Origin: Cymodocea nodosa | Lineage: Eukaryota > Streptophyta > Magnoliopsida > Alismatales > Cymodoceaceae | Assembly (NCBI GenBank): GCA_036874045.1 | Contig: CM072344.1 | Coordinates: 8,404,501 to 8,468,500 of the forward strand | Length of the DNA: 64,000 nucleotides | Direction: 5' to 3' | Part shown: positions 2,085 through 58,608 of the stretch, piece after piece | Layout of the letters: each line of letters starts with the position of its first letter | Numbering within the stretch: position 1 is the first letter of the stretch | Notes under the pieces: generated by a model | Told to the model about the DNA's origin: nothing | What the model saw: the letters and a program-made list of their open reading frames with translations, nothing else | Database searches by the model: none | Made by a program: the position numbers and the translations under genes

Positions 2085-2710
2085 CTGTTTAGAATGAAAA
2101 AGTGCATATTATTAACGGTTAAATGATGGTTAATTGCATAATATTTAGCTTATCATATAAGAATTAAGCCATTATGTTATAATTGCACTATTATATGCTT
2201 TAATTGAAGAATTTGCTTAATTTGGGGGAATTAATGTTAATTTAGTACATTTATGAATTGTCGGTAAGTTGCAGGCTATGAAATTCTTAAGTATCTGAAT
2301 ATTCTGATATTTCGGATAGTTATGTTTAACATACCGAACAAATTCGGACAGTTATGTTTAATAGACTGAATATGTATCGGATAGTTATGTTTAAATTGCC
2401 GAACAGTTATGTTTTGAGAGAATATTTTATTATTTCCTGAAGTACACGTGTCAAAACCATAATTAATGACTTAAGTGAACTTTCGGTGAGTTATCTATAA
2501 CTATCTGAAATTGCAGCTGGGCATCAGATAGTTATCCCTGTAACTCTCCAAAATCTCTTTTTATTTATAAAATAGCTGAGGACACATGTCATGTTCTAGG
2601 AAATTGACTTCAGTGGATTTTCGGTGAGTTAGCTGTAACTATCCAAAATGCACCTGAGCATCGGATAGTTAAATTTATGCACGTGTTTTATAGTTAAATC
2701 AACGAAGAAA

Positions 2711-2750
2711 GTCCGTTGAGTTATCTGTAACTCCACGGACTATATATTTT
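2711..2750 (+). promoter_or_regulatory. palindrome plus TATA-like box in the LTR of A
   Basis: The arm GTCCGTTGAGTTA, the 4-nt spacer TCTG and the arm TAACTCCACGGAC pair at 12 of 13 positions. The run TATATATTTT follows directly. This is the most promoter-like point of the LTR and the likely start of the R region, judged by position only. Confidence 0.55.
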
Positions 2751-3770
2751 CTAATATACCACTATAGCGGTTGCAAGAACAGACAGTTGGAAGAGAAAAA
2801 TCACGTTTGCACGTATCACGTAGGAATTCAATCGCGTAGGGAGAAGAAAGCATCGCCGTTGATATGAATGAAGGAAATCCAACCGACCATTCAAGTAGAA
2901 GCAGTTATTACTGAAGAAATATAAAAGAAAAGAAGAAAAAAAGAAGAGTGTGTGTGATCGATGGGCGGATAGTGTGTGTAGAGGAGGATCGACGTCGCAA
3001 TTCTCTGAAGTACCACACCAACCATCATCATCACCATCATCACGAACCATCGAAGGTCTGTAAGGATACTTGCCTGATGTCAGGTCGATTTCGAGCCAAA
3101 CATAGTGCCTGACAACCACTGTGAGGAGTGATCGCGTTGCGAGAAGGGAAGCCATTTTCACTAAGCGCCGACTCATATTTCAGGAGATCGTAAAGCTTTT
3201 AGCCTTGGCTTTGGGTTGATGCCTGTATGTTGAAGAGGAGATCATCTTGCAATTCTGGACTCACGATTCTATAGGGAGAGGAGACAGGATTGTAGGTGGT
3301 TTAATTTTCAGTGATGTAATCGCGTTACAAGTAGTGTCGAAAGTATTTACTATCAAGTGAGATTACTTTACATTTCACCTTTCGCCCATTTCCATGTTCA
3401 TATTAAAACAAAAATACCAAAAACAATTTATCTATGTTTGTATGTTGTATTTGAGTATTGTATTGTTTGTGTTGTATCGTGATTAATGTTATCTTTGTCA
3501 GTGTTGTGATTGTTTTATGTTTATTTTAGTTTTACAGTTTACTGAAATTGGTTCGTTCAAAAGACTTAAAGATTTTAATGGTTACTGTTTGAATTATCTG
3601 AATGTTAGTATTGCTCAATGATAAATCTAATGTTAACTAGCATTAAAGAGCTTAATTGATGTTATTTACAATCTATGGAATCGCCCAATGGTTGGCCGAA
3701 TTCCTCTATAAATAGTAGTATTAGAAAGAAAAGACAAGCTCGTGGAGTTAACTTAAGTCCATGAGGTTAG

Positions 3771-3852
3771 TCCGTTGAGTTATCCATAACTCAACGAACT
3801 TAGTCCGTTGAGTTAACTATAATTCAACGGAGAGCTTATTGAATATATAAAT
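3771..3852 (+). promoter_or_regulatory. paired GTTA/TAAC palindromes and second TATA-like box in the LTR of A
   Basis: Two palindromes with 12-nt arms and 4-nt spacers lie side by side (3771-3798 and 3804-3831). Their arms read TCCGTTGAGTTA and near-complements; each pairs at 11 of 12 positions. TATATAAAT follows at 3844-3852. The same arrangement recurs before internal ORFs of A. Confidence 0.5.
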
Positions 3853-4111
3853 TTGACTTTTAACAAACAAACAGTTCTCAAGTTCGTCAGCAATTCCTGG
3901 TGGGATCGACTTGTACTTGCACACTGATACAATAGACACTGTGCACTTACAGTTAAAGTACAAATTGGAATTAATATCTAAATTGTATTAAAGGTTGTTT
4001 GTTTACTTCTAAAAGAAAGAATAGGCGTAAAGATAAATTAACTAAGTAAAAACAGAAGTAACAAATCCAAGTTTTTCTAGTGTAGTGCTAGGAAAACCCG
4101 AACAAGTTTTA

Positions 4112-4129
4112 TGGCACCATTGCCAGGGA
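4112..4129 (+). other. primer-binding site, tRNA-Asp type
   Basis: TGGCACCATTGCCAGGGA matches the complement of the 3' end of plant tRNA-Asp (TGGCGCCGTTGCCGGGGA) except for three G-to-A changes, at positions 5, 8 and 14. Two are at CpG sites. Athila elements use this primer. The inverted copy of the site at 14382-14399 is closer to the tRNA. Confidence 0.9.
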
Positions 4130-4214
4130 ATTGAATTGAATTGAACTGAATTAAATTGAATTGAATAGATATAACCAACTGTTAGAGTAGTTTCATTTTA
4201 ATAGCTAGAGTTGT

Positions 4215-6207
4215 GTGTTTTCTTCTATAATTGAGAATATGACATATGCTTATGCTCAAAGATTTCTGAAACCTGTAATTAGCATATGTGAATTCCGCAA
4301 TTCTGAAGGACACGACATTTCTGATTGTTTGAAATTGAGACATTTACAGATGGTTAGATCCCATGAACAACAAATGAATTATCCTCAATATAATAGAGTT
4401 GAGTACGAGAATCCTATAGTTTACCCAACTGATGGTTAGTATAGAATGTGTAATATGATGAGAGACACTGAAGTTTGGGATAGCTATGACAGACTGGAGC
4501 ATAGTATAGAGCAAAATCTGGACAAACTAGAATACTTTGTGTGTCAACAACAAGAAGTTAACCAAGTAAACTATAAGGAAGCATACTGAGAACCTGAATA
4601 GGATATAATTTACGAAACTGAAAAAAAAAAACATAAAGAAAATTGATCAAAAATTGAATGAAATGAAATTAGATGATCTAGATCAAAAATTAAAAGTATT
4701 AGATGAAAATGCAATGAAAATACAAGTTATGCAACAGGACAATGAAAATTATAATGTTATAAACCTACATAATTTGCAAAATATACAGCAAATAGAAAAT
4801 ACCAATGCAAGATAATTTAACGAATGCACTTTAAAACTAAAAACAATTGAAGATCATAATCACGAAAATGATATACAAAAACATCATGAAAGTAACGAAA
4901 ATCTGGAAGATGTATGTGTAACATTAAGATCTGGAACTGATATACCACCAAGAACTCAAAATGAAAATGATATGAAGGTGGATAAGAGTAAAAATCAAAA
5001 TGATAATGAAAATGTAATAGCTGAAAATCTAGAAATCACTAAAGAACAATCTAAATCTACGAATGAAGCTAAAAATGATCAAACAAATCAACTGAAAGAA
5101 AAAGAGTCTTTGAAATCAAAATCTTTAGCACCCTATCCTGAAAGATTACAATAAACAATTCCTGAAAAACAAGAAAAAATCAGAGAAATTTTTGAAAAAG
5201 TACAAGTTAACATTCCTTTGTTAGATCTATTGCAGAAAATGACACCTTGTGCTACATTTCTTAAGGATTGGTGTACTAAGAAAAGTGAGCGAAAAGTTCT
5301 TAGAAAGGTCCTTTTAGCTGAGCAAAGTAGTTCCTTATTTCTGCCACAAATTCCTAAAAAGTTATCTGATCCTGGAATCCTTGTTATATCATGCACCATA
5401 GGAAATACCATTTTAGAAAGAACATTAATAGACTTAGGTGCAGGTATAAATGTTATGCCAAGTGATATATTTGCATCCTTAGGATTAGAAGCCTTAACTC
5501 GTACTAGTACAGTTAATCAATTAGTTGATAGACGTATAAGATACTCTAGAGGAAAAATAGAGGATGTCTTAATTAAAATCAAAAATTTTATATATCTTAT
5601 TGATATTGTAATTTTGGATTCCCAACAAATTAAGCATAAAAATAGGGGTACATCTTTAATTTTAGGGAGGCCATTTTTAGCAATATCAGGGGCTGTTATA
5701 AATTGTACAACTGGAGTAATGAAGTTAGCATATGGTAATGAGGATACTCAATTAAATATTTTCAAACCAGAAAGGTTTGAGGAGTTAGAAATGTCCTTAC
5801 TTACCATAGACTTTTTAGAGGATGAAGGAGATATGCTAGATGATGTGATTCAAGAAGAATTAAATAGGCAAATCAATTCTGAAATTTTAAACGAAAGTGA
5901 AAGCATAAATATAGAAGGAGATCGGGAAGAAATTAATTTAAAAAATGATGATGTTCAATTAGGAGCTCTAGCTTCTGATGGGCAGCATTTAGAATTAAAA
6001 CTTTTACCTCCTGAATTAACCTATATATTTTTGGAAAATAAACGAACATGTCCAATCATTATTGCTTCAGATTTAAAAGAGGATCAAATAGCTAAATTAA
6101 AAGATGTAGTAAAAAGTTATAAAGAAGCAATAGGATGGACTATAATTGATATAAAAGGGTTAAGTTCAAGTTTATGCTGTCACCACATATATTTAGAAGA
6201 GTGCTAA
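4215..6207 (+). pseudogene. nucleocapsid (zinc knuckle) and aspartic protease part of gag-pol, element A
   Basis: The frame opens at 4215. Codons 25-38 have the spacing of a CCHC zinc knuckle, C-X2-C-X4-H-X4-C, but the second Cys is Arg (C25, R28, H33, C38). Stops and a frame change follow. TLRSG, typical of the Athila gag-protease linker, lies at 4921-4935. From 5218 an open frame of 329 codons holds the protease region with LIDLGAGINVMP, where Athila enzymes have a D-L-G-A active-site motif, then GRPFLA about 100 residues later. The end at 6207 is a frame change before reverse transcriptase. The capsid part of gag is missing here and sits instead at 12651. The role would be RNA packaging and polyprotein cleavage; this copy cannot make a full product. 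Confidence 0.8.
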
Positions 6208-7530
6208 ACTTGTTAGAATTCCTGAGAGGAGATTAAATCCAAACCTTAAAGAAGTAGTCAGGAAGGAAATAGTTAAATGGTTAGATAATGATATAATTTA
6301 TCCGATTTCTAATAGCTCGTGGGTTAGTCCAATCCATGTAGTTCCCAAGAAATCAGGATTAACAGTTATTAGGAATGAAAGTCAAAACTTGATACCTACT
6401 AGAATTCAATCAGGCTGGAGAGTATGTATAGACTATAGGAAGTTGAATGCTGTGACTTGGAAAGATCATTTTCCCTTACCTTTTATAGATCAAATGCTAG
6501 AAAGATTAGTAGGGTAAGAATATTTTTGTTTCCTAGACAGGTATTCAGGGTATAATCAAATTTTAGTAGCATTAGAAGATCAAGAGAAAACAACTTTCAC
6601 CTGTCCTAATAGAACTTATGCTTTTAAAAGAATGCCATTCGGATTATGCAATGCACCAGCTACCTTTCAAAGGTGTGTGTAGGGCATATTTACTAGAATG
6701 ACTGAAGATTTTTTAGAAATATTTATGGATGATTTTACTGTATATGGTAACTCATATGAAGTGTGTTTAAGCAATTTAGACCAAATATTAAAACACTATG
6801 TGGAAAAAAATCTAGTTTTAAATTGGGAAAAATGTCACTTCATGGTTAAACAAGGAATAGTCTTAGGGCATGTTGTTTCTAAAAAAGGGTTGGAAGTAGA
6901 TAAAGCTAAAATAGAAGTAATTTCTAATCTACCAGAACCTAAATCAGTAAAAGATATTAGATCATTTCTAGGACATGCTAGTTTTTATAGAAGATTTATT
7001 AAAGACTTTAGCAAGATAGCTAGACCTTTAACTAATCTATTAAAAGATGTTCCATTTAACTTTGATAAAAATTGCAAGGAAGCATTTTTCAGACTTAAGA
7101 CTAGCTTAATTTCAACTCCTATAATTCAAGCACCTGATTGGAACCATCCATTTGAATTAATGTGCGATGCTTTTGATTTTGCTGCAGGAGTAGTGTTAGG
7201 ACAGAAGATAGAAAAATCTCCTAGAGTGATTCATTATGCAAGCAAAACCTTAAATGATGCTCAAGTTAATTACACAACTACTGAAAAAGAATTATTAGCT
7301 GTTGTGTTTGCTTTAGAAAAGTTTAGATCATATCTGATTGGAGCTAAAGTAATAGTATACATGGATCATTCAGTTCTAAAACATCTAATAAAGAAAAAAG
7401 AAACTAAACCTAGATTGATCCGATGGATATTATTATTGCAAGAATTTGATCTAGAAATTAAAGATAAAAAAGGTTGTGAGAATGTAGTAGCAGATCATTT
7501 ATCAAGATTACAAATAGAAAAATCAAATAT
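6208..7530 (+). pseudogene. reverse transcriptase and RNase H, element A
   Basis: Reverse transcriptase blocks appear in order: VSPIHVVPKK (about 6325), WRVCIDYRKLN (about 6418), FPLPFIDQMLERL (6470), FTCPNRTYAFKRMPFGLCNAPATFQ (about 6595-6670, named by its ends FTCP and TFQ), and the catalytic IFMDDF (6719-6736). The frame is broken near 6200, and stops lie at about 6515 (TAA) and 6680 (TAG). From 6698 the frame is open through the connection and RNase H, with [32 protein letters not shown] (split motif, about 7270-7335) and [13 protein letters not shown]. It reads on into integrase without a break, as in Ty3/gypsy polyproteins. Confidence 0.9.
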
Positions 7531-8885
7531 TGAAATTAAGGATAATTTTCCTGATGAACAATTAATGACCATCAACACAATGCCTTGGTATGCAGACATA
7601 GTTAATTACTTAGTTACTAGTTTAACACCTAAGGATTGGAATAGACAAGTTAAGAAATTATTTTTCTTAAGAGTAAAATACTACTATTGGGAAGACCCAT
7701 ACTTATTTAAGAAATGTTCTGATCTGGTTTTAAAAAGGTGTGTTCGAGGAACTGAATATTCGAGCATATTGTCTTTCTGTCATGACCAAGCTTGCGGAGG
7801 GCATTTTGGTTTAGGGAAAACTGCGCCAAAAATTCTACAGTGTGGGTTTTATTGGCCAACACTATTCAAAGATGCTCATAAATATTGCTTAAGTTGTTTC
7901 AGATGCCAACAAATAGGAGGAATATCAAAGAGGAATATGATGCCTCTTAATCCTATTGTTAAGGTTGAAGTCTTTGATGTGTGGGGAATAGATTTTATGG
8001 GTCCATTTCCTATGTCTAATCAATTTAATTACATATTGTTTGGGGTGGATTATGTATCAAAATGGATAGAAGCTATTCCTATAAAAACTTGACAACAAAG
8101 TGGTAATTCAATTTATAAGAACAAATATATTTGCCAGATTTGGAATACCTAAAGCTATTATCAGTGATAGAGGAACTCATTTCTGTAATAGAAGTTTTAA
8201 AGCCTTAATGAAGAAATATGGAGTAAACCACAAAATTTCAACATCATATCATCCGCAAACAAGTGGACAAGTAGAAAGTGAAAACAAACAAATTAAATTA
8301 ATCTTGGAAAAAGTAGTAAATCCTACTAGAACAGATTAGGCTAATAGATTGATAGATGCACTTTGGGCTTATAGAACTGCTTATAAAACGAGCTTAGGTA
8401 TGTCACCTTTTAGGCTAGTATATGGAAAAAGTTGTCATTTACTTATTGAAATAGAACATAAAGCTTATTGGGCATTAAAAACTCTGAACACTAATTTAAA
8501 TCAAACTGCTCAAAATAGAAAAATGTAATTAATTGAATTAGAAGAATTTAGAAATGAAGCTTATTCGAAGACTGTAAGAGAAAAAGAAAAAATTAAATTT
8601 TGGCATGATAGAAAAATTATTCCTAAAAGCTTTGAAATAGGACAAGAAGTATATCTTTATATGGCTAGACTCCATAACCATCCAAGAAAATTGAAATCTA
8701 AATGGGCAAGACCTTATATAGTTCGAAATGTTTATCCTTATGGAGCTATTGAAATTGAAAATCCTAAAAATCAGAATATATTTAAAGTAAATGTACAAAA
8801 ACTTAAACCTATTCTGAAAACACCAAAAAGCTCCTTTGGAATTATAGAAGAAGTCAGAGTAGAGGACTACTCGAGCTTTACTTAG
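7531..8885 (+). pseudogene. integrase, element A
   Basis: The HHCC zinc-binding domain is visible: H and H in [14 protein letters not shown], then C and C in CLSCFRCQQ (about 7770-7915). The catalytic core has [10 protein letters not shown] (first Asp), then ISDRGTHFCNRSF (second Asp) and SGQVESENKQIK (Glu). A frame change lies between 8092 and 8100, and TAG and TAA stops at about 8337 and 8526. The C-terminal part resembles Athila integrases ([37 protein letters not shown]) and ends at 8885 after a basic stretch. It would insert the cDNA into the genome. Confidence 0.9.
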
Positions 8886-9678
8886 TAAGAAATCAGTTTT
8901 TATGTTTATATATATATATAAAAAAAAACATTAAAAATATATATAAAACATAAAAATCATTGCGGTTCAACCGATTGGATCCATCGGTATGACCGGAACA
9001 TAAAAAAATGTATATTAATTTTCAGAAAAAAATATTGGTTTTACTGAAATATAGTATTGGTTCAACCAAAAGAAAAAATAAATAATAAAAATAAATAAAT
9101 AATAATAAATATCTAGGTCTAACCGAAACATAGTATCGGTTAAACCTATAAAAAATAGAAAAACTATTCTTTGTAATATTTTTATTATTATATTTACTTG
9201 TACGGGGAGTCTGTTGAGTTATGCTTAACTCAACGAGCTTACTTTGTTGAGTCTTGAGTTAGTCAATGAGCTTATTCCGTTGAGTTAACTATAACTCAAC
9301 GGAGTATTATAGCTAAGACCTCGGATAAAATAGTAATAGTTGGTTCGGGAAATGACCCGATTACCCGCCTAAACTTAGGGCTTATTTAAATTAAAACTTA
9401 GGGTTTTGGAGGCATTATCCGGTAAATCATTTAGAATCTAGAACAGTAGAAATCAAAGGGATTCTGTGCTGTTGTGTAACTCCACGATGAGGTAGATGAC
9501 GCCTGAATTCTGGGAAGAGGCAGTGGACACCGCACAGTTTCTAAAGGAATCTGAAGAATGACACACAAGGTAGAAGATCAGAAATACAACGAGAGAAAAA
9601 GAGTTACAGAAGGTAGAATCTAAACTTTTTAGATTAAGAAGAATATTAGTAGATTGTGGTATACAAATACCCTATATA
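8886..9678 (+). promoter_or_regulatory. spacer with palindrome arrays and TATA-like box before the 3' ORF of A
   Basis: There is no gene in this stretch. At 8960-9155 lie several GGTT/AACC palindromes (CGGTTCAACCG, TTGGTTCAACCAA, GGTCTAACCGAAAC against CGGTTAAACC) in AT-rich DNA. At 9211-9302 come palindromes of the LTR type. One of them, 9275-9302, is perfect: arm TCCGTTGAGTTA, spacer ACTA, exact complementary arm. TATTTAAA follows at 9383-9390, about 290 nt before the ATG at 9679. The order array, TATA-like box, ORF suggests an internal promoter. Confidence 0.5.
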
Positions 9679-11700
9679 ATGGAGACACGAATTAGAGTAG
9701 CAACTGAAATTGCAGTTAGCAAAGAAAGAAAAATCCAACCAAACAATGAAGTAGCCCTAGAGTTAATTCAACGTAAAGCCAGATTGTGGTTTAAGAAACG
9801 CATTGTTGGTCGAGGAAGTTGGGAAATATGGCGGTAGGAACAACAAGAGGCAACCGAAGGACAAGAGGAGCCGACTGCTGAAAGACTTGTTCCTGAGGAG
9901 CAACAGCCTGAACCTTCAATTCCACCATTTAAGCTATTGGCACGAGCAGAAATGATGGGGCCTTTGACTAAAGAAGAAATAAGAGAATTTTTAGAACTAG
10001 TTCAAGTTGGGAAGAACCAAGGAGAATCAGAAGATTTGGCAGTGGCCAAAGCACACCTAGTTTTTGATGCACTTTACAAAAAGAGGGTTGTAGAAAAGTT
10101 GAAAGCCCAATATAAAATCAAATTGGAACAGCATCACGAAGCTACTGCCAGAACTGGTGTCAAACCTGCTGCAAAAGGAGATGAAGCTGGTCCTTCGAGA
10201 CCAGTAGTTATAAAAAAAGTTAAATAGGAAGAGCCAGTACCTGTGGCTCGAAGGCCTACAGAGCCTATTTTTGTAGATTTAATTTCAAAAGATGAAGAGG
10301 AAGAATAGGCACAACTAATCAGAAAAAAGAAAGGAAAAGAAAAAGTGTCTGAATATGAGGAAATTAAATTTGAAGTACCAATTTTTACAGGGCCTGTGGA
10401 GCAAATTTTTGTTAACCTGCTATTCGATTCTGAGGAGGAGTAGGAGTAGCAAAGAAAAGAAGAAAATCAGGCTGAAGTTAGTCTGCAGCCTGTACAAGAA
10501 GAAACAGAAATTAGGGTAGAAACTGAATTGCCTATGACTCCATCCCAGTCTGTTACAGAATCAGAAAGAACAGTAACAGAACAAATTGGTAGTCAGGAGG
10601 AAAAAGAAAGAGTAGAAAATGAAGAGGCTAAAAGAAGCCATTTGGACAAAAATAATTTCATAGATTCCACTAAAGAACAAGAAACTCTTCAGCAATTTAT
10701 GGAGAGAATTCAAGACAAAGTGGAGAGTTCTGCCGGCTCACCACCACAAACAGAAACAAAAATTCAGGAATCTGTAGAAAATATTCAAATGCAACCTATA
10801 GAAGAGGAAGATCAAGAACAAACCCCTTTGGAGCAACAAAGTCACCTTCCTGACCCGAATGAAACAACAATTTTGAATAAAGTACATTTTTGTAGTCAAG
10901 AAGCTTATACCAAATATCAAGAAATAAGGGGTTATGATATTATTTACAGTAGACTAGTAAATTGGGATGGAATGCAAGAAATCAAAGAATTATTTGAATT
11001 CCAAGGTCTACTGCAATTTATATCTCAAGAAAGAGGGCATGCAGTATATGAAAATTCAGTGCCCTGTTTTTATGCTAATTTGAGAGAAGGAGAAGGAGGA
11101 TTAATTTCAAACGAAGAGGAAGCTGATGTACAGATAACACCAGAGCTTCTCCACAATATTTTTGGATTAAAGAATGAAGGAATAAAAATTTTGGAAGATA
11201 CAACTATAGTTGAATGGACTGAGCAGCAAATTAAGGATTGTTTAGCTATCAATCTTGGTGTGCCATTATTAAACTAATTGAAGCATTTAAATGGTAAAGC
11301 ACACATGGTAGCTAACATTCTAATTAAGAATGTCTATCAACGACAGGGCCATGACATAGAATTAAGTCAATTTGTCAAATGAGCCACATATGCAGTTGTA
11401 AATAATATCCAAATAAATTGGTCTGTAGTTTTTATCTCCAAGCTGAAAACAGTGAAGAAGAAATTATTTTATGGAGATTTGATTCCACTACTGATGGTGG
11501 ACTATATCGATTTCACTAAATGGACATCAAAAAGGATCAGATCTAGAACCATTTCAGTGAAAGAATACAGAAATTTTGTAGCTACAGAACTAGTTGTACC
11601 TTCTAGAGGAATTACAGGAGCAATAGAGAGGATTAATCAATTAGAGCTTCAATTAGAAAAACTCCAGAAGGAAGTAGATGAACTTAGGCATATAGATTAA
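9679..11700 (+). pseudogene. 3' ORF in the envelope position, 'putative plant transposon protein' type, element A
   Basis: One frame of 674 codons runs from ATG 9679 to TAA 11698 with seven in-frame stops (TAG 9835, 10225, 10306, 10441, 10447; TAA 11275; TGA 11380) and no frameshift. The N-terminal half is rich in Glu, Gln and Lys. The C-terminal half holds a folded domain with VHFCSQEAYTKYQ, ELFEFQGLLQF, PCFYANLREG, ITPELLHNIFGLKNEG and, after the stop, HMVANILIKNVYQRQGHDIE, INWSVVF and KKLFYGD. A C-terminal coiled coil follows (INQLELQLEKLQKEVDEL). The same domain occurs in copia B (39391-41661) and C-prime. It resembles the plant-transposon domain of Athila ORF1-type proteins. I see no signal peptide or membrane segment, so envelope function is not supported. 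Confidence 0.8.
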
Positions 11701-12650
11701 ATTTTATTGTTCGTCTACTTGTGTAAAATTGTATGAAATTGTATGATGTACTTTTAATGTAATTGATTCATATTAATGAATGTAAATTTTTTAGATGCAA
11801 TTTTCATACGTGTTTTGGATGTGAAATGAATGGAATTTATTGAATATTATGTAATTTGTGAAACTTTATGAATGAATATGTAACAGATTTACAATTTGCT
11901 GAATGATAGGATAATTGCTTAAAAATTTCTACATGTTGTAAGGTAAAATGTAAATTCTGCATAACATAAAATGACCTGCAAGTTAAATCTTTATATAATG
12001 CTCAGATTTAAACGTATTTTAATCAAAATGACGCATTAATGACATAGATTTAATTTTATTACAGTTAGCAGAATGAAAAAGAAAGAAAAAAGAACAAAAA
12101 GGAACTTACGAGAATAAGACTTAGAAGTTGCTAAGTGTTAACTCAACGAAGTAAGTCCGTTGAGTTAACCGTAACTCCACAAGGTCAGTAATATAATATA
12201 AGGTCACTCTGTTGAGTTATCAATAACTCAACGAAGTTAGTCTGTGGAGTTGGCAACAGTAACCGATTGTATTCTGTTGAGTTTTCTGTAACTCAACAAG
12301 GTTAGTTTGTGGATTAAGCAGAACGGTTATTCTTTTAACTATGAACGAAACTTCATCGGTTTAGCGGTTACCAAAATTTGAAATTAGTAGTGGTACACGT
12401 ACCCATATAAATAGGAACCACAATGCACGTTGCAAGCCACGTTCTTGCAACGAGATTTATTCACTTTATGGATGCGCAGTATATATATAAAACAGAATGT
12501 TATTTATGAGTTACCAGCACTTTTAAAAGAAAGGAGAATGCATTGGAGGAACTGGAAGGAGAAGCAGTTGATTCAACTTCATCCGATAACAAATATTTAT
12601 AGAATGGAAAGCTTCAGACTGGTATGTAATTAATTTTCTACTATTTATTT
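11701..12650 (+). promoter_or_regulatory. spacer with palindrome array and TATA box before gag of A
   Basis: AT-rich spacer. Between 12138 and 12310 lie alternating TAACTCAACGAA and TCCGTTGAGTTA arms. One palindrome is 12208-12235 (arm TCTGTTGAGTTA, spacer TCAA, arm TAACTCAACGAA; 10 of 12 pairs). A canonical TATAAATA lies at 12405-12412. A short frame (12430-12633) ends at a donor-like CTG-GTATGTAA at about 12620, just before the gag ATG at 12651. The layout is that of a promoter plus short leader. Confidence 0.5.
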
Positions 12651-13993
12651 ATGAGCACATGGACTCGTTCTCTAAGCACTAAACGATTAGTAAGAACACC
12701 TACCTAGGAATTTTCATTGCAAAGGAGTACTGAAAAATTTTCTAAACTGAACTTTAACGAAATTCTTTGGGGTGCAGCTAACCTTTCTTTAAAAGAGAAC
12801 GTAGAAATGGCTGCTCTAGTAGAAAAACCATTAGGAGAAATTCTGTATCCTGAATTAATTGATGAACCTTCATGTATTTGATTGCCAAACTTTGAGGGAG
12901 ATAGGTTTGGACTGAAATCTAATTATATTAGTCAATTGCCACATTTTCATGGATTAGAAAGAGAGGATGCCTATTATTTCCTTAGAGAATTTAACGAAGT
13001 TTGTCAAATGATGAAAATGCCGAACATGAGTATAAATGCTATTAAACTTAGATATATTCCTTTTTCTTTAAAAGACACAGCTAAGAGATGGTTATATCTC
13101 TATCGCCTGATTCAATTTCTACATGGACTGAATTTTGCTCTGCTTTTCTGGAAAAATATTATCCAACACATCAAATGATTAAAAAGAAGAAAGAAATATT
13201 AATGTGTAGCCAAAAACAGGGTGAATCATTCTGAAAATATTTTGAAAGATTTAAAGATTTACTGACTCAATGTCCACATCATGCAATGAGTAGAGCACAA
13301 CTAATAGGTATAATTTATGAAGGCATAGATGTTTCAACGAAATCTTTATTAGAATCTAATTGTCAAAATGGATTTTTAAAATTATGTAGTGAAGAAGCAT
13401 GGGCATATTTAGAAAACTTTGCAAAAAGAACTACATAGTGGGAAAATTCGGTTGAAGCTATTGTAGATAAAAGAATATTATCAAGAGGAATGCATAAAAT
13501 AAATTCCAATACTATGCTTGAAGTGAAATTAAATGAATTAACAAAGAAAATAGAAGAGTTATCATTAAATCAAAAGCTAGCAGAAAAGAATGCAAGCATA
13601 AATGACTTAGATATTATTTATGCTAGAAACCAGAGAGATAACTTGGGAAATTCTTATCATCCTAATTGGAGAAATCACCCGAATTTATCTTGAAGAAACA
13701 ACAATTTCCAAGGAGGAGAAAATATAAATGAGAAGAACATAAGTTATGAAGTATTAATTGAACAAAGAGCTAGAATAAAGAAATTAGAAAAGATAATCTA
13801 ACAAGTAAACAATCGTCTAGAATTTATATTTGGAAATGCTGCAATTCAAAATCAGAATAGAAATATATCACTTAGACAGAAGGTACCAATGGAAGTTAGA
13901 CCTACTGGAGGATTGCCAATACAAGCTATACCTAATTTTGTTAATAGAACGGTTAATGAAATTGATACCACTTCTGAGAGGGCAGCTGAATGA
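12651..13993 (+). pseudogene. gag capsid ORF of element A, located 3' of pol
   Basis: The ATG at 12651 (MSTWTRSLSTKRLVRTPT, then a stop) opens a frame that becomes typical Athila-type gag: FEGDRFGLKSNYI, HFHGLEREDAYYFLREFNEV, IKLRYIPFSLKDTAKRWLY. After a frame change near 13100 it continues with KYFERFKDLLTQCPHH, YEGIDVSTKSLLE and finally NSYHPNWRNHPNLS, ending at TGA 13991-13993. It forms the structural shell of the virus-like particle. Stops lie at about 12705 and 12879 (TGA), and further on around 13236, 13437 and 13692. No zinc knuckle lies between the capsid and the NPNWRNHPN-like block, where related proteins have one; a knuckle instead opens the pol frame at 4287. Confidence 0.85.
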
Positions 13994-14181
13994 AGCAGCA
14001 TATCTAAAGCAACTATCTGTATGTATATATGTTTTATTTTTAGTTAATAGTATCGTAGAGTTAATTTTTAACTCAACGAACTTAGTCCGTTGAGTTATGC
14101 CTTAACTCCACGAGGGTGTGTAGTAGTTATGTTAATTTTTGTCTCTACTAAATTTTTGTTTGTGTTTTACAGAATCGACAA
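13994..14181 (+). promoter_or_regulatory. palindromes and acceptor-like site before the F-box ORF
   Basis: Two palindromes of the LTR type lie at 14053-14079 (arm TCGTAGAGTTA, 5-nt spacer, TAACTCAACGA) and 14085-14113 (arm TCCGTTGAGTTA, then TAACTCCACGAG). A pyrimidine-rich run ending TGTGTTTTACAG (14161-14172) resembles a 3' splice site and stands 10 nt before the ATG at 14182. Confidence 0.45.
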
Positions 14182-14381
14182 ATGGAATTGATGCAATTAC
14201 CGTTGGATGCACTAAGGGAAGTACTAAGTAACTTGTCAGCTAAAGATCTGTGCAGGCTGTGTTGTGTATCAAAGGAAATTAAAGACTGTATTAAAGAAAA
14301 ATATTTTTAGGGACTATAAGCTGCAAAAATGACTAAGATTAGAGATGGATTCATATGGAGGTCATTTAATCGTAGTTCAAA
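14182..14381 (+). pseudogene. F-box domain ORF, truncated by the inverted LTR
   Basis: The ATG at 14182 opens 42 codons reading MELMQLPLDALREVLSNL, then SAKDLCRLCCVSKEIKDC, up to TAG at 14308. This matches the F-box consensus (LP-x-D-x-L-x-x-x-L-S-x-L-x-x-K-D-L-x-R-L-x-x-V-S-K), the Skp1-binding helix bundle of SCF ubiquitin ligases. Past the stop the same frame continues (AAKMTKIRDGFIWRSFN) to 14381, with one more TAA, and is then cut by the inverted primer site. TAG at 14308 would come from TGG or CAG by one transition. The missing C-terminal domain is probably of the kind seen at 2-322. Capture of a host F-box gene by the element is an inference. Confidence 0.7.
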
Positions 14382-14399
14382 TCCTCGGCAACGGCGCCA
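14382..14399 (-). other. inverted primer-binding site, tRNA-Asp type
   Basis: On the minus strand it reads TGGCGCCGTTGCCGAGGA: 17 of 18 positions match the complement of the tRNA-Asp 3' end. Similarity to the forward copy stops at its last base; beyond it lies F-box-frame sequence. Confidence 0.9.
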
Positions 14400-14406
14400 T
14401 AAAACT

Positions 14407-16423
14407 TGTTTGGGTTTTCCCAACACTACACTAGAAAAACTTGGATTTGTTACTTCTATTTTTACTTAGTTAATTTATCTTTATGCCTATTCTTTCTTTT
14501 AGAAGTAAACAAACAACCTTTAATACAATTTAGATATTAATTCCAATTTGTACTTTAACTGCAATTGCACAATGTCTATTGTATCAGTGTGCAAGTACAG
14601 GTCGATCCCACAAGGAATTGCTGACGAACTTGAGAACTGTTTGCTTGTTAAAAATCAAATTTATATATTCAATAAGCTCTCCGTTGAATTATAGTTAACT
14701 CAACAGACTAAGTTCGTTGAGTTATGGATAACTCAACGGACTAACCTCGTGGACTTAAGTTAACTCTACGAGCCTGTCTTTTCTTTCTAATACTGCTATT
14801 TACAGAGGAATTCGGCCAACCATTGGGCGATTCCATAGATTGTAAATAACATCAATTAAGCTCTTTAATGCTAGTTAACATTGGATTTATCATTGAGCAA
14901 TACTAACATTCAGATAATTCAAATAGTAACCATTAAAATCTTTAAGTCTTTTGAACAAACCAATTTCAGTAAACTATAAAACTAAAATAAACATAAAACA
15001 ATCACAACACTGACAAAAATAACATTAATCACAATACAACACTCAAATACAACATACAAACATAGATAAATTGTTTTTGGTATTTTTGTTTTAATATGAA
15101 TATGGAAATGGGCGAAAGGTGAAATGTAAAGTAATCTCACTTGATAGTAAATACTTCCGACACTACTTGCAATGCGATTACACCACTGAAAATTAAACCA
15201 CTTACAATCCTGTCTCCTCTCCCTATAGAATCGCAAGTCTAGAATTGCAAGATGATCTCCTCTTCAGCATGCAGGCATCAACCCGAAGCTAAGGCTAAAA
15301 GCTTTATGATCTCCTGAAATATGAGTCGGCACTTGGTGAAAATGACTTTCCTTCCCGCAACGCGATCACTCCTCACAGTGGTTGTCAGGCACTATGTTTG
15401 GCTCGAAATCGACCCGACATCAGGGAAGTATCCTCACCAACCTTTGATGGTTGGTGATTATGGTGGTGATGATGGTGATGATGATGGTTGGTGTGGTACT
15501 TCAGAGAATTGCGACGCCGATCCTCCTCTGCACACACTATCCGCCCATCGATCACACACACTCTTCTTTTTTTCTTCTTTTCTTTTATATTTCTTCAGTA
15601 GTAATTGCTTCTACTTGAATGGTCGGTTGGATTTCCTTCATTCATATCAATGGCAATGCTTTCTTCTCCCTACGCGATTGAATTCCTGTGTGATACGTGC
15701 AAACGTGGTTTTTCTCTTCCAATTGTTTGTTCCTGTAATCGCTACAGTGGCATATTAGAAAATATATAGTCCGTGGAGTTACAGATAACTCAATGAACTT
15801 TCTTCGTTGATTTAACTATAAAACACGTGCATAAATTTAACTATCTGATGCTCAGGTGCATTTCGGATAGTTATAGCTAACTCACCGAAAATCCACTTAA
15901 GTCAATTTCCAAGAACATGACACGTTTCCTCAGCTATTTTATAAATAAAAAGAGATTTCGAAGAGTTACAGGGATAACTATCCGATGCCCAGCTGCAATT
16001 TCGGATAGTTATAGATAACTCACTGAAAGTTCACTTAAGTCATTCATTATGGTTTTGACATGTGTACTTTAGGAAATAATAAAATATTCTCTCAAAACAT
16101 AACTATTCGGCAATTTAAACATAACAATCCGATACATATTCGGTCTGTTAAACATAACTGTCCGAATTTGTTCGGTATGTTAAACATAACTGTCCAAAAT
16201 ATCAAAATATTCGGATACTTAAGAATTTCACAGCCTGCAACTTACCGACAGTTCATAAATGTACTAAATTAACATTAATTCCCCCAAATTAAGCAAATTC
16301 TTCAATTAAAGCATATAACAGTGCAATTATAACATAATGACTTAATTCTTATATGATAAGCTAAATATTATGCAATTAACCATCATTTAACCGTTAATAA
16401 TATGCACTTTTTCATTCTAAACA
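14407..16423 (-). mobile_element. LTR of element A, inverted copy
   Basis: This is the reverse complement of 2086-4104 at about 2017 bp, with a few per cent of differences, mostly transitions, and a 12-nt length difference in a GATGGTGATGAT stretch at about 15460-15485. The minus-strand start TGTTTAGAATG ends at 16423 and the CA end lies at 14407, 7 nt from the inverted primer site. On its right the sequence changes at once to a fragment of an F-type copia LTR. The two copies form a 2-kb inverted repeat 10.3 kb apart. Confidence 0.9.
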
Positions 16424-21055: not shown

Positions 21056-21120
21056 ATCTCCCCCTTTTTGATGATGTCAAAACCTAATAAGTCACATAAT
21101 TTATATCTCCCCCTTTTTGG
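21056..21120 (-). other. polypurine tract of C-prime and a second, near-identical tract
   Basis: On the minus strand AAAAAGGGGGAGATT (21056-21070) stands at the LTR boundary. A second copy, CCAAAAAGGGGGAGA, lies about 50 nt upstream in the element (21106-21120). ATCATCAAAA beside the first tract pairs with TTTTGATGAT at the LTR start. Confidence 0.75.
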
Positions 21121-21410: not shown

Positions 21411-22261
21411 TCACAAGCCTCTTTGTCTTCGAAAAATATCAACCAGAGTATTTGAAATTTTCTTTGCAATTTCTATACTAACTCTGTTTATCTAATCAAG
21501 TAATGCTTGATCTAAATCATTTTGAGAAACCTGTGATGGTTGCTGTAAAAATTTAGTATGTATGTCTGTATCTATACCTGTATGTATTTCTATATGTATA
21601 CCTTGCTGTATATTTGTATGTTGCTGTGTTTCTGTAAATTGTGTGGATTGTTGCTGTTGTAGTTGTGACTATGTTTGCCGATCCTGTTGTTGTTGTCTGA
21701 GGACAGGTGTATCTGCTTCCTGATATTTTTGGAGTTCCTTTGCAGAGAAAGATCTTGACTTTAATCTTTTCTATGGCCAAGGTGTAATATCTGTTTGACT
21801 TGCCACAATTCTCAAAATCGTATCACCATAAAATAATTTACTCTGCAAATGTAAGATATGAGAAACAAAAATATCATACCAGTTCACCTGTATATGGTTT
21901 ATTAATGCATTTGTAGCATAAAGACAACATCTACCAACTTCTACCCTATGACCAAACCTCTGAAATAATGTAGCATGCAATATTTTTGCAATAAAACGTG
22001 CTTGGCCATTTAAGTCATTTAGTAATCTCAATGGTTTGTTGGTAGTTGGATCTTTGGCTAAACTTGTAATGTCCCATTCCAATCGATAAACCTATTTTCT
22101 TTCTAATAATTTAACTCCATTTTTCAAACCAAGTACCTGATAAAGTAAATCTAAAGTTAAATATATGTCATTGTCTTGTATATTAGAAACAGGAATACCT
22201 TCTTCCACTGTTAAGTTTGAGTAAAAACAACTGATAAGTTCGGGTATAGCAAGATGGCATG
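21411..22261 (-). pseudogene. C-terminal part of the copia 3' ORF, C-prime
   Basis: Minus-strand frame with CFYSNLTVEEG, LDLLYQVLGLKNG, then after one TAG: LNGQARFIAKILHATLFQRF, VEVGRCCLYATNALINHIQV, NWYDIF and SKLFYGD. A Gln-rich tail follows, and the ORF stops at 21411. It aligns with the 3' ORFs of B and of gypsy A. Where B has TAG (41206, 41314) this copy keeps Gln, showing those stops arose by CAG to TAG. The N-terminal part is cut off by the B-type LTR at 22262. Confidence 0.8.
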
Positions 22262-29552: not shown

Positions 29553-29554
29553 AA

Positions 29555-44494: not shown

Positions 44495-44496
44495 AC

Positions 44497-49781: not shown

Positions 49782-51166
49782 ATGGTTCTGTTTATTGTAT
49801 TTTGGTTTGTTATAAGGTAGTTTTAGAATTTAATGTCTTTATCATTAAAATAAAATAAAAAACCAAACAAAATATCTATTTTTGAATTACAGTTTTCTGG
49901 TAGTTAAGAATTTATGAAATTCTGATTTTTATTGAAGTCAATTTATTTTAAAAAAATTCAGAAAATATTACTTAAGGACAGTTAAATTGATTCAATATGA
50001 GTGTTAACTATATTTTTGTTACTTATGTATATGCTATTACAGAGATTTTAACAAGAAAATACATAAAAAGTATGTACTTTTTATTAAAGGAAAGTTATTA
50101 ACATTCTGTTAGAAATATTAAGTCTTGTAGTTGACTCTAATTTAATTTACTGTCTTGTTTTATTTTTTGTTTGTTTACGTTTGTAATTACTTGAGTAATT
50201 AAGTTCGTTGGGGGATCTTAAACCCTAGTCACTTAAACCAACTGGTTTAGGATGTGCTGACTGAAAACTCATTTTGCAAGTAATTCAGATTATATTTTTT
50301 TTAAAAAAAAAAATTATTACCTATTCTCATTTGTCATTGAGTAACTAGTTATCTTTCCCCTAAGCAAGGGATTGTGATCACGTAAAAAGATAATATTGTA
50401 GGAGGTAATACATAAAATATATATATGAATATAAAAAAAAAAAAGGCAATGTACTCAAGCTTAATTTATCTTTCAATGTGTTATAACAATCCTACCATAA
50501 TCTGTACATATATTCCTTGTTATTTTTTGTTATTATCTACTCTTTACACATAATGTACGATAATTATTGTCTTAAGTTTGTGTACTCATTATTGAATTCT
50601 TTTTAAGTTTATGAAGGTATATCTTTATGAATTATCTTTTGTAAACTGAATAAGATAAAAGCTAGAAAGTCTAAATTGTTAACTCTACTACTTATTTCTG
50701 TATTTAATTCAAATTCAATTAAAAAAAAAAAGGAGAGACTTAAATCTATTTATGGCTTAGCATCCTCTTTAAGTAAGCTATTTGACCTTTTAAAGCCAAA
50801 TCTACTTAGGGCTTGGCAACCCACATTAAGTACGCCATAGATTCTTTACACTACATTTATGTAGGGGCAGCAATTTCTCGTATAATAATTCATCTCTTAT
50901 GAACTATTATATGTTTTCATGAAAGAATCTACATAATTTCAGGAAATACACTTTAATTAAGTACATTTCTAAACTGTTAGTGACTTGCAGGTTTTTTTTT
51001 TAATTCTTAAGTATCCAAATTTTCTATTGTTTCAGCAAGTTATATTGCAAGTATCGGACAATTGTGTTTTAAAACGTTCAATAGACTATTTTATTATTTC
51101 CTGAAGTACACGTGTCAAAACCATAATGCATGACTTAAGTGGATTTTCAGTAAGTTATCTGTAACT
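49782..51166 (+). other. post-pol region of C, left of E
   Basis: No gene. From about 50985 to 51166 it aligns with the U3 of the LTR of A (2260-2500), sharing ATTATTTCCTGAAGTACACG and GTCAAAACCATAAT. The preceding part is a weaker match to the 3' region of A. Element E has inserted at a GTTATCTGTAACT motif. Confidence 0.7.
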
Positions 51167-53010
51167 TGTTAGGAACGAATGGCTTCACTAGAGGGAGGGT
51201 GAATGGAGAACAGAGTGAATTTATGCCTATTTTTCACTTTACTAACTAATTTGATTAATCAGTTTGCATAAGTAATAAATAGATAAAAATATCATGCACA
51301 ACGGAAATAAAGGTAAGAAACACAAGAGAATTTTAGGTGGTTCACCAACTCGGCTAGTCCACCCCCAAGGGTCACTTGGGTTTTACTAAGTGTCTCAACA
51401 CTTACACACTTGCTTTTAGGTCGAAGCAAGAACCAACCACACAGAAGTTTTCAAGTATAAACTCCAGAAAACCAACACTCAGAAGTTTTCAAGTATAAAC
51501 TCCAGAAAACCAACCTCTTGAGTTTTCAAGTTGAAACTCAAACCAACAACTGAATGTAGCTTTCAGGTTGAAGCCACGAACCAAATGATCCTTCTTGGAT
51601 CAGACTTTCAGTGCATTGAGAGCTTTAAGAATCTTCTTGTAAATCCAGCTTTCAATCGATTCTTTGTTGAACTGATTTTGAGCTTTCTTCTATATCAGTA
51701 ATTGATCTGCAATGTATATTGTATCTCTATATGTAATTGTATCTGTAATCTCACTTGTAAGCTCTACCGTATATCTGTTGTCTGCATTTTGTATATATAC
51801 TTGATATGTTCAACGATCATATTTTCCTCCAACGGATGTATTCTTCTGTACTTAATTATGATCAAGTCCCAATACGGCAAGTGACCGTTCAGAAAACGTT
51901 TCAAGTGAACTTACCGATTTTCCTGTTCTTTCAGATAGTTAGCTAAGCAACTCTTCGAAGAGTAACTATAACTCACCGAAAGATTACTTATCCTTTACTA
52001 CCAGGTAGGATTCCAGAATATTCAAATGTGAGCTGTCATCCAATCGGATACTTATAGCTGTAACTCACCGAACAGTTATATACTTGACTCTATCAACATT
52101 CCGATTTAATTTAGCACGTGCATAAAAGACTGACTTAAATTTCGAAAGGTTATCCTATAACTCACCGAAATTCTTCAAGATTTCAGATAGTTATTTTTCT
52201 AACTCTCCGAAAACCTATTTGAGCCACTATCTGGAATTCTGCACGTGGGAAATTCGATGACTTAAGTTTTGGATGGTTAAACTGTAACTCACCGAAACTC
52301 TTTTGAAATTTTGGATAGTTATCTTTCTAACTCTCCGAAAACCTATTTGAGCATCTGTCTAGATTTCTACACGTGGGAAATTCACTGACTTAAGTTTCAG
52401 ATAGTTAAACTGTAACTTACCGAAACTCTCTTTTAAATTTCGAATAGTTATCCTATCTCTCCGATTTTCCCATTTAAACTTTCAACTGCTGGCTTCCTCC
52501 ATTTTGCACGTGCGTAATAAAATGACTTAAGTTCCGGAAAGTTATGCCTGTAACTTACCGAAAAACTCGAATAGTTATCTAACTCTCCGACAAGTCTTTT
52601 GAGCTTTCGTTCTGTATTTCTACACGTGGTTTATTGAATGACTTAAATTTCAAATAGTTATACCTGTAACTCTCTGAAAAGTCCTTTAAGCTTCCGGATA
52701 GTTATCTCCTTAACTATCCGATCATTCAATCCCTTTAACTATCTGATTAAATAACTCTCCGAAGGCTTTGTAAAATCGAATAGTTATTCTTCTAACTGTC
52801 TGATAGTATTGCTTCTGCTTTGAACTTGCTCTTCGGATACTTAGACCTGTAACTGTCCGATTTTTCCTGTAGCTCTATAGCAGTATCTTCTGGAACTTTC
52901 TCCATCTATTTGTTTGCTTTCTGATCTTTTGCTGAGCTATCATATCTGTGAAATACAATTTGGTTTCCTCACATAGGTTTTTGCATTATCAAAATACTAG
53001 GGTCCTAACA
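51167..53010 (-). mobile_element. 3' LTR of E
   Basis: 1844 bp. It is packed with G-boxes and GTTA/TAAC palindromes with TTTCGGATAG arms from about 51900 to 52870 (for example GGTTATCCTATAAC, GTTAAACTGTAAC, GTTATGCCTGTAAC). Confidence 0.93.
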
Positions 53011-56051: not shown

Positions 56052-56088
56052 AATCTCAAATGGTTAAATCTATAAAAGAGATCAACCA

Positions 56089-56100
56089 GCTCTGATACCA
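56089..56100 (-). other. primer-binding site of E
   Basis: GCTCTGATACCA on the plus strand is the complement of TGGTATCAGAGC, 2 nt from the 5' LTR. Confidence 0.92.
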
Positions 56101-56102
56101 AC

Positions 56103-57980
56103 TGTTAGGAACGAATGGCTTCACCAGAGGGGGGGTGAATGGAGAATAGAGTGAATTTATGCCTATTCTTCACTTTACTAACTAATTTGATTAATCAGTT
56201 TGCATAAGTAATAAATAAATAAAAATATCATGTACAGCGGAAATAAAGGTAAGAAACACAAGAGAATTTTAGGTGGTTCACCAACTTGGCTAGTCCACCC
56301 CCAAAGGTCACTTGGGTTTCACTAAGTGTCTCAACACTTACACATTTGCTTTCAGGTTGAAGCAAGAACCAACCACATAGAAGTTTTCAGGTATAAACTC
56401 CAGAAAACCAACACTTAGAAGTTTTTAGGTATAAACTCCAGAAAACCAACCTCTTGAGTTTTTAGGTCGAAACTCAAACCAACAACTGAATGTACCTTTC
56501 AAGTTGAAGCCACGAACCAAATGATCCTTCTTAGATCAGACTTTCAATGCATTGAGAGCTTTAAGAGTCTTCTTGTAAATCCAGCTTTCAATCGATTCTT
56601 TGTTGAACTGATTTTAAGCTTTCTTCTATATCAGTAATTGATCTGCAATGTATACTGTATCTCTGTATGTAATTGTATCTGTAATCTCACTTGTAAGCTC
56701 TACCGTATATCTGTTGTCTGCATTTTGTATATATACTTGATATGTGCAACGATCATATTTTCCTCCAACGGATGTATTCTTTTGTATTTAATTAGGATCA
56801 AGTCCCAATACGGCAAGTGACCGTTCAGAAAAACGTTTCAAGTCAACTTACTGATTTTCCTGTTCTTTCGGATAGTTAGCTAAGCAACTCTCCGAAGAGT
56901 AACTGTAACTCACCGAAAAATTACTTATCCTTTACTGCTAGGTAGGATTCCAGAATATTCAAATGTAAGCTATCATCCAATCAGATACTTATAACTGTAA
57001 CTCACCGAATAGTTATATACTTGACTCTATCAACTTTCTGATTTAATTTAGCATGTGCATAAAAGACTGACTTAAATTTTGGAAGGTTATCCTGTAACTC
57101 ACTGAAATTCTTTAGGATTTCGGATAGTTATTTTTCTAACTCTCCGAAAACTTATTTGAGCCATTGTTTGGAATTCTACACATGGGAAATTCGATGACTT
57201 AAGTTTCAGATGGTTAAACTGTAACTCACCGAAACTCTTTTGAAATTTCAGATAGTTATCCTTCTAACTCTCCGAAAACCTATTTGAACATCTGTTTGGA
57301 TTTTTGCACGTGGGAAATTCATTGACTTAAGGTTCGGATAGTTAAACTGTAACTTACCGAGACTCTCTTTTAAATTTTGGATAGTTATCCTATCTCTCCG
57401 ATTTTCCCATTTAAACTTTCAACTGCCGGCTTCCTCCATTTTGCACGTGCGTAATAAAATGACTTAAGTTCTGAAAAGTTATGCCTATAACTTACCGAAA
57501 AACTCGAATAGTTATCTAACTCTCCGAAAAGAAAACTTGGATAGTTATCTAACTCTCCGACAAGTCTTTTAAGCTTCCATTCTGTATTTCTTCACGTGGT
57601 TTATTGAATGACTTAAATTTTGGATAGTTATACCTGTAACTCTCCGAAAAGTCCTTTAAGCTTCCAGATAGTTATCTCCTTAACTATCCGATCATTCAAT
57701 CCCTTTAATTGTCTGATTAAATAACTCTCTGAAGGCTTTGTAAAATCGGATAGTTATTCTTCTAACTGTCCGATAGTATTGCTTCTGCTTTGAACTTGCT
57801 CTTCAGATACTTAGACCTGTAACTGTCTGATTTTTCCTGTAGCTCTATAGCAGTATCTTCTAGAACTTTCTCCATCTATTCGTCTACTTTCTGATCTTTT
57901 GCTGAGCTATCATATCTGTGAAATACAATTTGGTTTCCTCACATAGGTTTTTGCATTATCAAAATACTAGGGTCCTAACA
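56103..57980 (-). mobile_element. 5' LTR of E
   Basis: 1878 bp, the same ends as the other LTR; longer by about 34 bp, with an extra GATAGTTATCTAACTCTCCG block near 57540. Confidence 0.93.
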
Positions 57981-57985
57981 TAACT

Positions 57986-58608
57986 CTCCAAAATGCGTCT
58001 AGGCATCAAAAAGTTAGATTTGTAACTATTTGAAACATCGCTTTATTATAAAACTACTTAAGTACATGTGTCATGATCTGGAAGATTGACTTAAGTTATC
58101 TTTCGAAAGGTTATCTGTAACTCTCCAAAATGCACCTGAGCATTGGATAGTTAGGTTTATAAGTCTCCAAAACTTTCTGAACACCTTAAGTTCAAATTGT
58201 GCACGTGTTGAATTTCACTACTTTATAATGTCTTAGTCGAAACTCGAACAGTTATGTTTAACTCTTCGACTTTTCACACCTATTCCTTCGAGAAACTTGA
58301 ATAGTTATCATAAGTCTTCGAGTTTTCTCACTTTTCACTTAGGCTGAACTTATTTTCTTTATACGAACAATTACGCTAAGTATTATGTAATTGTTGGTTG
58401 TAAAACTTGTACAATTATTGCAAGCACTCGAGTTATTTATCGGTAACAGATCTTATATTTATGATTTCAATGATTGAATCCGTTTATAAACTCGAAGAGT
58501 TATAAATGTTTTACTAACAATATTTCGTGTTTCTACCTTAGTAAAACCCTAGCTTCACAATCTTTACTTCCACTAAGTTCTACAGTGCAAAACGAAGATT
58601 AATCGACA
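57986..58608 (+). promoter_or_regulatory. promoter-like region before the 3' ORF of C
   Basis: It continues the match to the U3 of A (CTCCAAAATGCACCTGAGCA, about 58114-58143). It holds G-boxes and AACTCGAACAG/TTCGAG palindromes between 58200 and 58520, and AT-rich TATA-like runs near 58450. The ATG follows at 58609. Confidence 0.5.

Follow-up and report, generated by a model that had tools for sequence, protein, structure and literature searches.

The repeats that crowd the non-coding DNA of several retrotransposons in one region of the Cymodocea nodosa genome share a single conserved unit: a directional half-site of 10 bp, CG-N3-AGTTA, which recurs in both gypsy and copia elements. The region analyzed (the “window”: 64,000 nucleotides, positions 8,404,501 to 8,468,500 of contig CM072344.1 in assembly GCA_036874045.1) proved on self-comparison and in boundary and domain scans to be a repeat-dense, 64-kb nest of long terminal repeat (LTR) retrotransposons (Table 1); families B, C/B' and E are Sirevirus-like copia elements that carry the half-site, and A alone is gypsy. 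An earlier reading of the same letters (the “original prediction”) had proposed that palindromes with a kept GTTA/TAAC core recur in the LTRs of unrelated families, through either exchange of promoter modules or selection for one host regulator that binds as an inverted pair. That core does recur across families, but the conserved unit is the longer, directional half-site. On balance, and with considerable reserve, we think that arrays of it probably serve as enhancers for one trans-acting protein, most likely a plant transcription factor, across the gypsy and Sirevirus-like elements.

The window holds 134 exact half-sites, all of them within 24,116 bp of LTR, linker, remnant and neighboring non-coding DNA, and none in the remaining 39,884 bp. 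This confinement is seen in each family (A, B, C/B' and E; Fisher p 7e-7 to 1e-9), and about 3 copies in all would be expected from local shuffles (the sum of the regional means). When the gapped 7-mers of gypsy A alone (2,592 bp: first LTR plus the linker before open reading frame 3 [ORF3]) were ranked, with 34,911 bp of coding and other sequence as the control, CG...AGTTA headed the list, at 17 copies in A and 0 in the control. The control was used in the ranking, so its lack of half-sites is not an independent result; the half-site is, however, also present in sequences that lay outside the ranking (B 15, C/B' 13 and E 18 copies, next to 24 in A). At up to one mismatch, the half-site is not in excess in control DNA (1.18 per kb vs 1.87 in shuffles), and the regulatory regions carry 3.9-19.8 per kb. 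Of the 134 copies, 53 have G, 56 have T and 25 have A at position 3, and the commonest one-step variant turns CG into CA or TG (70 of the 151 sites with one mismatch, counting chance matches). The suggestion that GTTA/TAAC represents plant MYB sites did not survive as a general description: the CNGTTR core, the only form considered, fits 10 of the 134 half-sites.

Within LTRs the half-sites occupy the first half in B and C, mostly the first half in E, and an early and a late cluster in A; TATA-like motifs follow them, and the same motifs occur elsewhere in these AT-rich LTRs. The last half-site before ORF3 starts 115-116 bp upstream of the ATG in B and B' (the B' ATG being putative).

The palindromes themselves are real and far above chance. 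GTTA-N2-8-TAAC occurs 84 times in the window, 49 times with a score of at least 7 and 30 times with a score of at least 9, against means of 12.0, 0.69 (standard deviation 0.78) and 0.12 in 200 local dinucleotide shuffles; shuffled sequence, which might have yielded them at the same rate, does not do so here. A scan for inverted repeats that was blind to the core gave 36 (vs 2-5 in 6 shuffles), 15 of them with the GTTA/TAAC core. Eleven of the 21 core-less repeats lie at 24-27 kb, a region without half-sites, so the inverted repeats there are of another kind; this DNA (24100-27279, 11 strong inverted repeats) is GC-richer and includes a 158-bp unit repeated three times in tandem (25893-26363). 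The palindromes cited in the original prediction were found in the sequence, some of them not quite as described: the perfect one with 12-nt arms (9276-9303) and that at 12208-12235 lie outside the LTRs, on the two sides of ORF3 in the internal non-coding DNA of gypsy A (the first upstream, the second downstream), and the “C-prime” example (20527-20571) has CTTA instead of GTTA in one arm. Beyond the window, a CGTTGAGTTA palindrome had 0 matches in viral contigs, and a CGGATAGTTA palindrome matched 9 prokaryote contigs, always as one site read on both strands, which we take as chance.

A palindrome is the commonest arrangement of the half-site, though not an obligatory one. Exact convergent pairs (spacer 0-8) take in 40 of the 134 copies, and 81 have a convergent partner with at most one mismatch, which bears out the predicted inverted pair as a frequent form; as a rigid form it is weakly supported, since 53 of the 134 lack such a partner within 8 bp at the same tolerance and spacers vary by family. 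The spacer length is family-typical, being mostly 4 in A (16 of 20 pairs, counting both LTRs here and below), 3 in B (6 of 8), 6 in E (15 of 26) and 2-5 in C (7 pairs). A same-strand neighbor stands within 50 bp of 64 half-sites, direct repeats being commonly 32-33 bp apart (16 bp in C). Tandem units of 128 bp and 32 bp also occur.

Strong inverted repeats of this kind, with 81 half-sites convergently partnered, might instead have been selected as hairpins or cruciforms, in DNA or transcript, perhaps to supply small RNAs or to signal silencing; the available part of one report describes maize Sirevirus LTR palindromes as small-RNA mapping hotspots (PMC5311732). Arm pairing was compared with within-family permutation in 34 convergent pairs, each family region being represented once (A 13, C 4, B 3 and E 14, remnant included). 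Arm position 3 pairs in 30 of the 34 (23.0 on permutation, p=0.001), and the gap positions pair at chance within families (position 4 in 21, permuted 21.9; position 5 in 14, permuted 13.4). Pooled across families, position 4 does pair above permutation (21 vs 14.8, p=0.013), as a hairpin would have it. A stem would need pairing at positions 4 and 5 and a protein touching two patches would not, which favors a protein site over a hairpin; the 53 unpaired copies and the 64 with same-strand neighbors also speak against hairpins, to which we give little credence.

Assignment to the Sireviruses followed the polypurine tract (PPT), attachment site, primer-binding site (PBS) and integrase signal given in the available part of Bousios 2010 (PMC2829016). 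B, C and E all have the PPT (...GGGGGAG as published) and AT/TG junction, in the form AAAAAGGGGGAG-AT/TG; for B' the 3' LTR lies outside the window. At the junction of 5' LTR and PBS, for which the published form is CA/ATTGG or AGTGG with a PBS of the Met-tRNA type, B reads CA/AGTGG, and B' (ACTGG) and E (GTTGG) are one base off; the C-rich integrase signal near the LTR end appears in B, B' and E as TGGTATCAGAGC and CCCCC runs. Domain scans found Retrotran_gag_2, zf-CCHC, rve and RVT_2 in B, zf-CCHC, rve and RVT_2 in B', and only Retrotran_gag_2 in E, with no pol detected there. Gypsy pol domains (RT_RNaseH and Integrase_H2C2) mark A, and its PBS is TGGCGCCGTTGCCG after the second LTR and a diverged form of it after the first. 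We take this PBS to be of the tRNA-Asp type and A to be Athila-like. The families are thus unrelated, as had been claimed, where A is set against the Sirevirus-like elements, but B, B'/C and E are all Sirevirus-like, with common junctions.

Shared ancestry of the LTRs was weighed by comparing one LTR each from A, B, C and E (cut-off E<=0.01). Unmasked, the A LTR aligns locally with E and B at ~60-86% identity over 35-406 bp; with the half-sites masked, the A-B, A-E and C-E similarities are all lost, and the B-C (393 bp, 61%) and B-E (42 bp) alignments survive at the LTR 3' end. Masking an equal number of random 10-bp windows (40 trials) mostly kept the similarity (A-E in 33, A-B in 30, C-E in 27), so it is the half-sites that carry it. 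Since A then aligns with none of the others, a common LTR ancestor, which might have undone the original prediction, does not explain what A shares with the Sirevirus-like elements. The recurrence of one gapped half-site in LTRs with no other alignment to that of A lends support to the idea of a single regulator. It is improbable, in our judgment, that the repeat has no function and was spread by common ancestry, tandem duplication and recombination. The 128-bp and 32-bp tandem units, the A-B' homology described below and the alignable 3' ends of B-C and B-E would suit that account, but it has to contend with the failure of the A LTR to align with B, C or E outside half-sites, and with the retention of CG and AGTTA around a variable N3 (though CG-to-CA/TG is the commonest one-step change).

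Positions 2184-2678 of the A LTR align with the B' linker (E removed) over 500 bp at 68% identity, rising to 90% over 84 bp, and similarity of the remainder of the A LTR to that linker was not detected. This supports the predicted exchange of promoter modules, and we read the stretch as one that a gypsy LTR and a copia linker would have exchanged. A solo A LTR, old and eroded, inside the B' linker is a less likely source, and is disfavored in that the linker showed no LTR ends (z 0.4, -0.3, 0.5). A 1.1-kb non-coding stretch upstream of the A LTR (858-1942) is also 67.6% identical to the B linker just after pol (37831-38869); this is possibly a second exchanged stretch, and we do not count it, the owner of 1-2085 being unclear.

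The half-sites keep distinctive company. G-boxes (CACGTG) number 38 (3.6 expected from 100 shuffles) and ACTTAAGT boxes 22 (2.5 expected), and 35 and 20 of these, respectively, lie within the half-site regulatory regions. A ACTTAAGT-like box stands within 25 bp of 17 of the 35 regulatory-region G-boxes (null 3.3; LTR copies and tandem units counted; center offsets: A, 25; B, 18; C, 13; E, 19; B' linker, 25 and 17); most G-boxes of B and C have no ACTTAAGT-like box nearby. In 500-bp bins, with half-sites masked, the CpG observed/expected ratio (o/e) has a median of 0.79 where there are at least 2 half-sites (28 bins) and 0.30 where there are none (99 bins; p=1.7e-9). By feature, the LTRs of A, B, C and E have a CpG o/e of 0.65-1.2, and their internal DNA, gag-pol and ORF3 have 0.17-0.33. 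A telo-box (AAACCCTA or complement) lies upstream of ORF3 at 9399 (A), 39295 (B) and 58544 (B'); with 5 in the window vs 2.2 expected, we do not take it as evidence.

Taken together, we envisage the palindrome as the commonest layout of a putative protein-binding half-site that, interleaved with G-boxes and ACTTAAGT boxes, would form composite enhancers: in LTRs the arrays may drive the LTR promoter, and upstream of ORF3 they may serve an internal promoter. One factor, bound cooperatively or as a dimer to inverted and direct pairs, would recognize gypsy and Sirevirus-like arrays alike, and the arrays could have spread and diverged through local duplication in tandem and through the swapping of LTR and linker stretches among elements. 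The factor is presumably a host protein, given the G-box company and the sharing across superfamilies. Several points weigh against this reading. The half-site was spotted by eye in, and then tested on, one and the same window, the region borders were drawn by us, and the sample is one gypsy family in one stretch of one genome; since LTR pairs and tandem duplicates account for many of the copies, their effective number is below 134. To these must be added the pooled excess of pairing at position 4, and the six positions outside the half-site, which pair no more than within-family permutation.

Alternatively, the binding protein may be encoded by the elements: ORF3 of A, B and C/B' would recognize half-sites in its own LTRs and promoter and counter silencing, in the way that VANC proteins act for VANDAL transposons, and E would exploit it in trans. 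ORF3 is homologous in A and B (33% over 122 aa, E=2e-20 in a single comparison), a related remnant exists in C, and all three families bear half-sites; spacer and arm flavor are family-typical, as co-evolution with ORF3 would have it, and CpG retention tracks the arrays. Parallels come from the available parts of two reports: VANC, with short arrayed motifs in non-coding DNA, tandem-repeat turnover and presence in an unrelated transposon (PMC5735166), and the aORF of sunflower Athila, with partial Transposase_32 similarity and predicted nuclear location (PMC11728184). No DNA-binding domain speaks for ORF3, however: the B ORF3 domain reaches 15.0 bits with PF20167 (Transposase_32; cut-off 45), the A domain has no match to it, and a PDB sequence search with the B domain gave one match at E 0.32, which we disregarded. 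The start of B' ORF3 is only weakly like that of B (8/31 identical, E=2e-4), tblastn gave no link between the two, and the label in B' is based on position and that weak match. The VANC21 motifs share one orientation, unlike the mixed half-sites here; the G-boxes within the same arrays point to host factors; and four Sireviruses with repeats are described as lacking an env gene in the available part of PMC2829016. Element G, being cut off by the window, offers no test here. We regard an element-encoded binder as doubtful, and slightly more doubtful still the broader version in which ORF3 of both superfamilies binds the arrays and its own promoter and keeps them active or unmethylated, ORF3 and arrays having been exchanged between gypsy and copia, with the gag-only E as exploiter. 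If the factor were element-encoded, it would constitute an anti-silencing or self-activation system spanning retrotransposon superfamilies; the homologous 0.5-kb stretch and ORF3 do suggest gypsy-copia exchange. Viral contigs contained no relative of the B reverse transcriptase (RT) or of the A-B ORF3 alignment.

Insertions may also have sought out the palindromes. B (target-site duplication [TSD] ATAAG; 30610-30614/43768-43772) and E (TSD TAACT; 51162-51166/57981-57985) each inserted at most 1 bp from the inner arm edge of a half-site-like palindrome, and the available part of PMC6911290 describes a slight palindrome preference of insertions, significant for SIRE and Athila among others, and a preference of Tos17 for ANGTT-TSD-AACNT. 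Two insertions amount to a lead and not to a result: the affected arms are degenerate, at least one mismatch from the half-site and outside the 134, and neither B' (which abuts E-like gag) nor the second A LTR (which abuts a G-like LTR piece) landed in half-sites. That palindromes serve as integration targets, and that targeting accounts for their co-occurrence, is the least probable of the explanations considered, as it leaves the arrays and their sharing unexplained.

The nesting of the elements is as follows. B (30615-43767) sits inside the LTR of B', which is of the same family as C; B' runs from that LTR (30134-30614 and 43768-44495) through pol (to 49782) and the linker to a putative ORF3 from 58609, and E (51167-57980, minus strand), in which gag is the only ORF found, is inserted in the B' linker. 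The gypsy A LTRs (2086-4104, plus; 14376-16423, minus) are mutually inverted and therefore not the pair of one intact element; each is followed by a PBS. Just 3' of the element G PBS, a 187-bp unit occurs twice in tandem (59442-59823). An Rfam scan at the gathering threshold and a tRNA scan of the window gave no matches.

Table 1. Elements, reading frames and half-site clusters, numbered from the first letter of the window
Feature	Position	Strand	Remarks
LTR, gypsy A	2086..4104	+	TGTT...AACA ends; PBS-like stretch ~4111; 13 half-sites, clusters 2313-2737 and 3741-3815
Gypsy A ORFs: gag-protease, RT-RNaseH, integrase	4816..8885	+	0 half-sites in 4105-9000
Gypsy A linker half-site cluster, 5' of ORF3	9213..9486	+	holds perfect palindrome 9276-9303
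Gypsy A ORF3 region, frames broken	9574..11700	+	10876-11274 homologous to copia B ORF3
Non-coding DNA 3' of A ORF3	12139..14112	+	7 half-sites
Second gypsy A LTR, inverted	14376..16423	-	93.9% identity to first (PBS included); 11 half-sites
LTR of Sirevirus-like C/B' family	19787..21057	-	10 half-sites, including direct repeats 16 bp apart
ORF3 remnant of C	21723..22241	-	similar to ORF3 of A and B
B LTR fragment	22262..22894	+	carries half-sites
C, second LTR	23119-24009	-	ORF3 remnant between the two C LTRs
E-like element remnant (LTR part and gag)	28101..30132	+	6 half-sites
B' 5' LTR, first part	30134..30614	+	split by B; resumes 43768-44495
5' LTR of copia/Sirevirus-like B	30615..32225	+	12 half-sites; TSD ATAAG
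B linker half-sites	39111..39285	+	n=3; last starts 115 bp 5' of ORF3 ATG (39391)
B ORF3	39391..41208	+	in-frame stop 39625; weak PF20167 match, below cut-off
B 3' LTR	42158..43767	+	11 half-sites
B' linker, left part, homologous to gypsy A LTR	50900..51166	+	E inserted here inside a palindrome
E LTR	51167..53010	-	18 half-sites
Other E LTR (Sirevirus-like, gag ORF only)	56103..57980	-	18 half-sites; TSD TAACT
B' linker, right part, and half-sites	57981..58502	+	upstream of putative ORF3 start, ATG 58609
Copia element G: PBS 59402, gag, integrase, RT	59402..64000	+	0 half-sites; extends past window

Among known systems, the half-site shares repeated binding sites in a plant LTR with Tto1, whose type of LTR enhancer is reportedly MYB-driven; the differences are that the half-site is mostly without CNGTTR and that its array is common to gypsy and copia elements. 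Judged by the available part of PMC11963269, Retand with TRP28 resembles these elements in having, between pol and the 3' LTR, an additional ORF, with a proposed DNA-binding role, and tandem repeats, but the TRP28 ORF is antisense, whereas ORF3 here is sense and the repeated unit is a defined half-site that LTRs carry as well. The likeness to VANC and its VANDAL elements (Hosaka 2017, PMC5735166, in its available part) lies in the short non-coding arrays, their tandem-repeat turnover and the motif in an unrelated element; besides their single orientation, the VANC21 motifs have another sequence, and VANC binding is experimental, whereas ORF3 binding here is conjecture.

The closest precedent is the palindromic LTR repeats (RM) in CpG islands of Sireviruses described in 2010, which the available part of that report (PMC2829016), comparing copia elements, gives as Sirevirus-specific, with no common binding site found. 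Like them, the repeats studied here are high-copy palindromic boxes with CG in the arms, placed in the LTR and in the linker before a downstream ORF, and CpG-rich (the o/e of 0.79 vs 0.30 given above). Unlike them, the unit is longer and gapped and 53 of the 134 copies lie outside palindromes; B carries CGT rather than the CGG of the published CGG-CCG core; A bears sites beyond ORF3 as well as a late second cluster in its LTR; and the half-site is found in a gypsy element, not in Sireviruses alone. As to number, for which the published figure is at least 8 per element, B and C have fewer than 8 palindromes when these are counted as convergent pairs (3 and 4), though more than 8 half-sites. Among the matches listed in the literature searches, judged by title and the start of the abstract, there was no report of these repeats in gypsy elements, and the titles listed for the half-site sequence were not about these elements; as far as searched, then, the half-site in a gypsy element, the ~0.5 kb shared by the A LTR and the B' linker, and the homologous ORF3 of A and B are new. 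The pattern belongs with the known Sirevirus repeats; what it adds to them is a gapped half-site of defined sequence and its occurrence in a gypsy element whose promoter stretch and ORF3 have copia homologs. The binder of the Sirevirus repeats was left open in 2010, and one half-site that marks four families of the window, gypsy A among them, now makes a binding assay possible.

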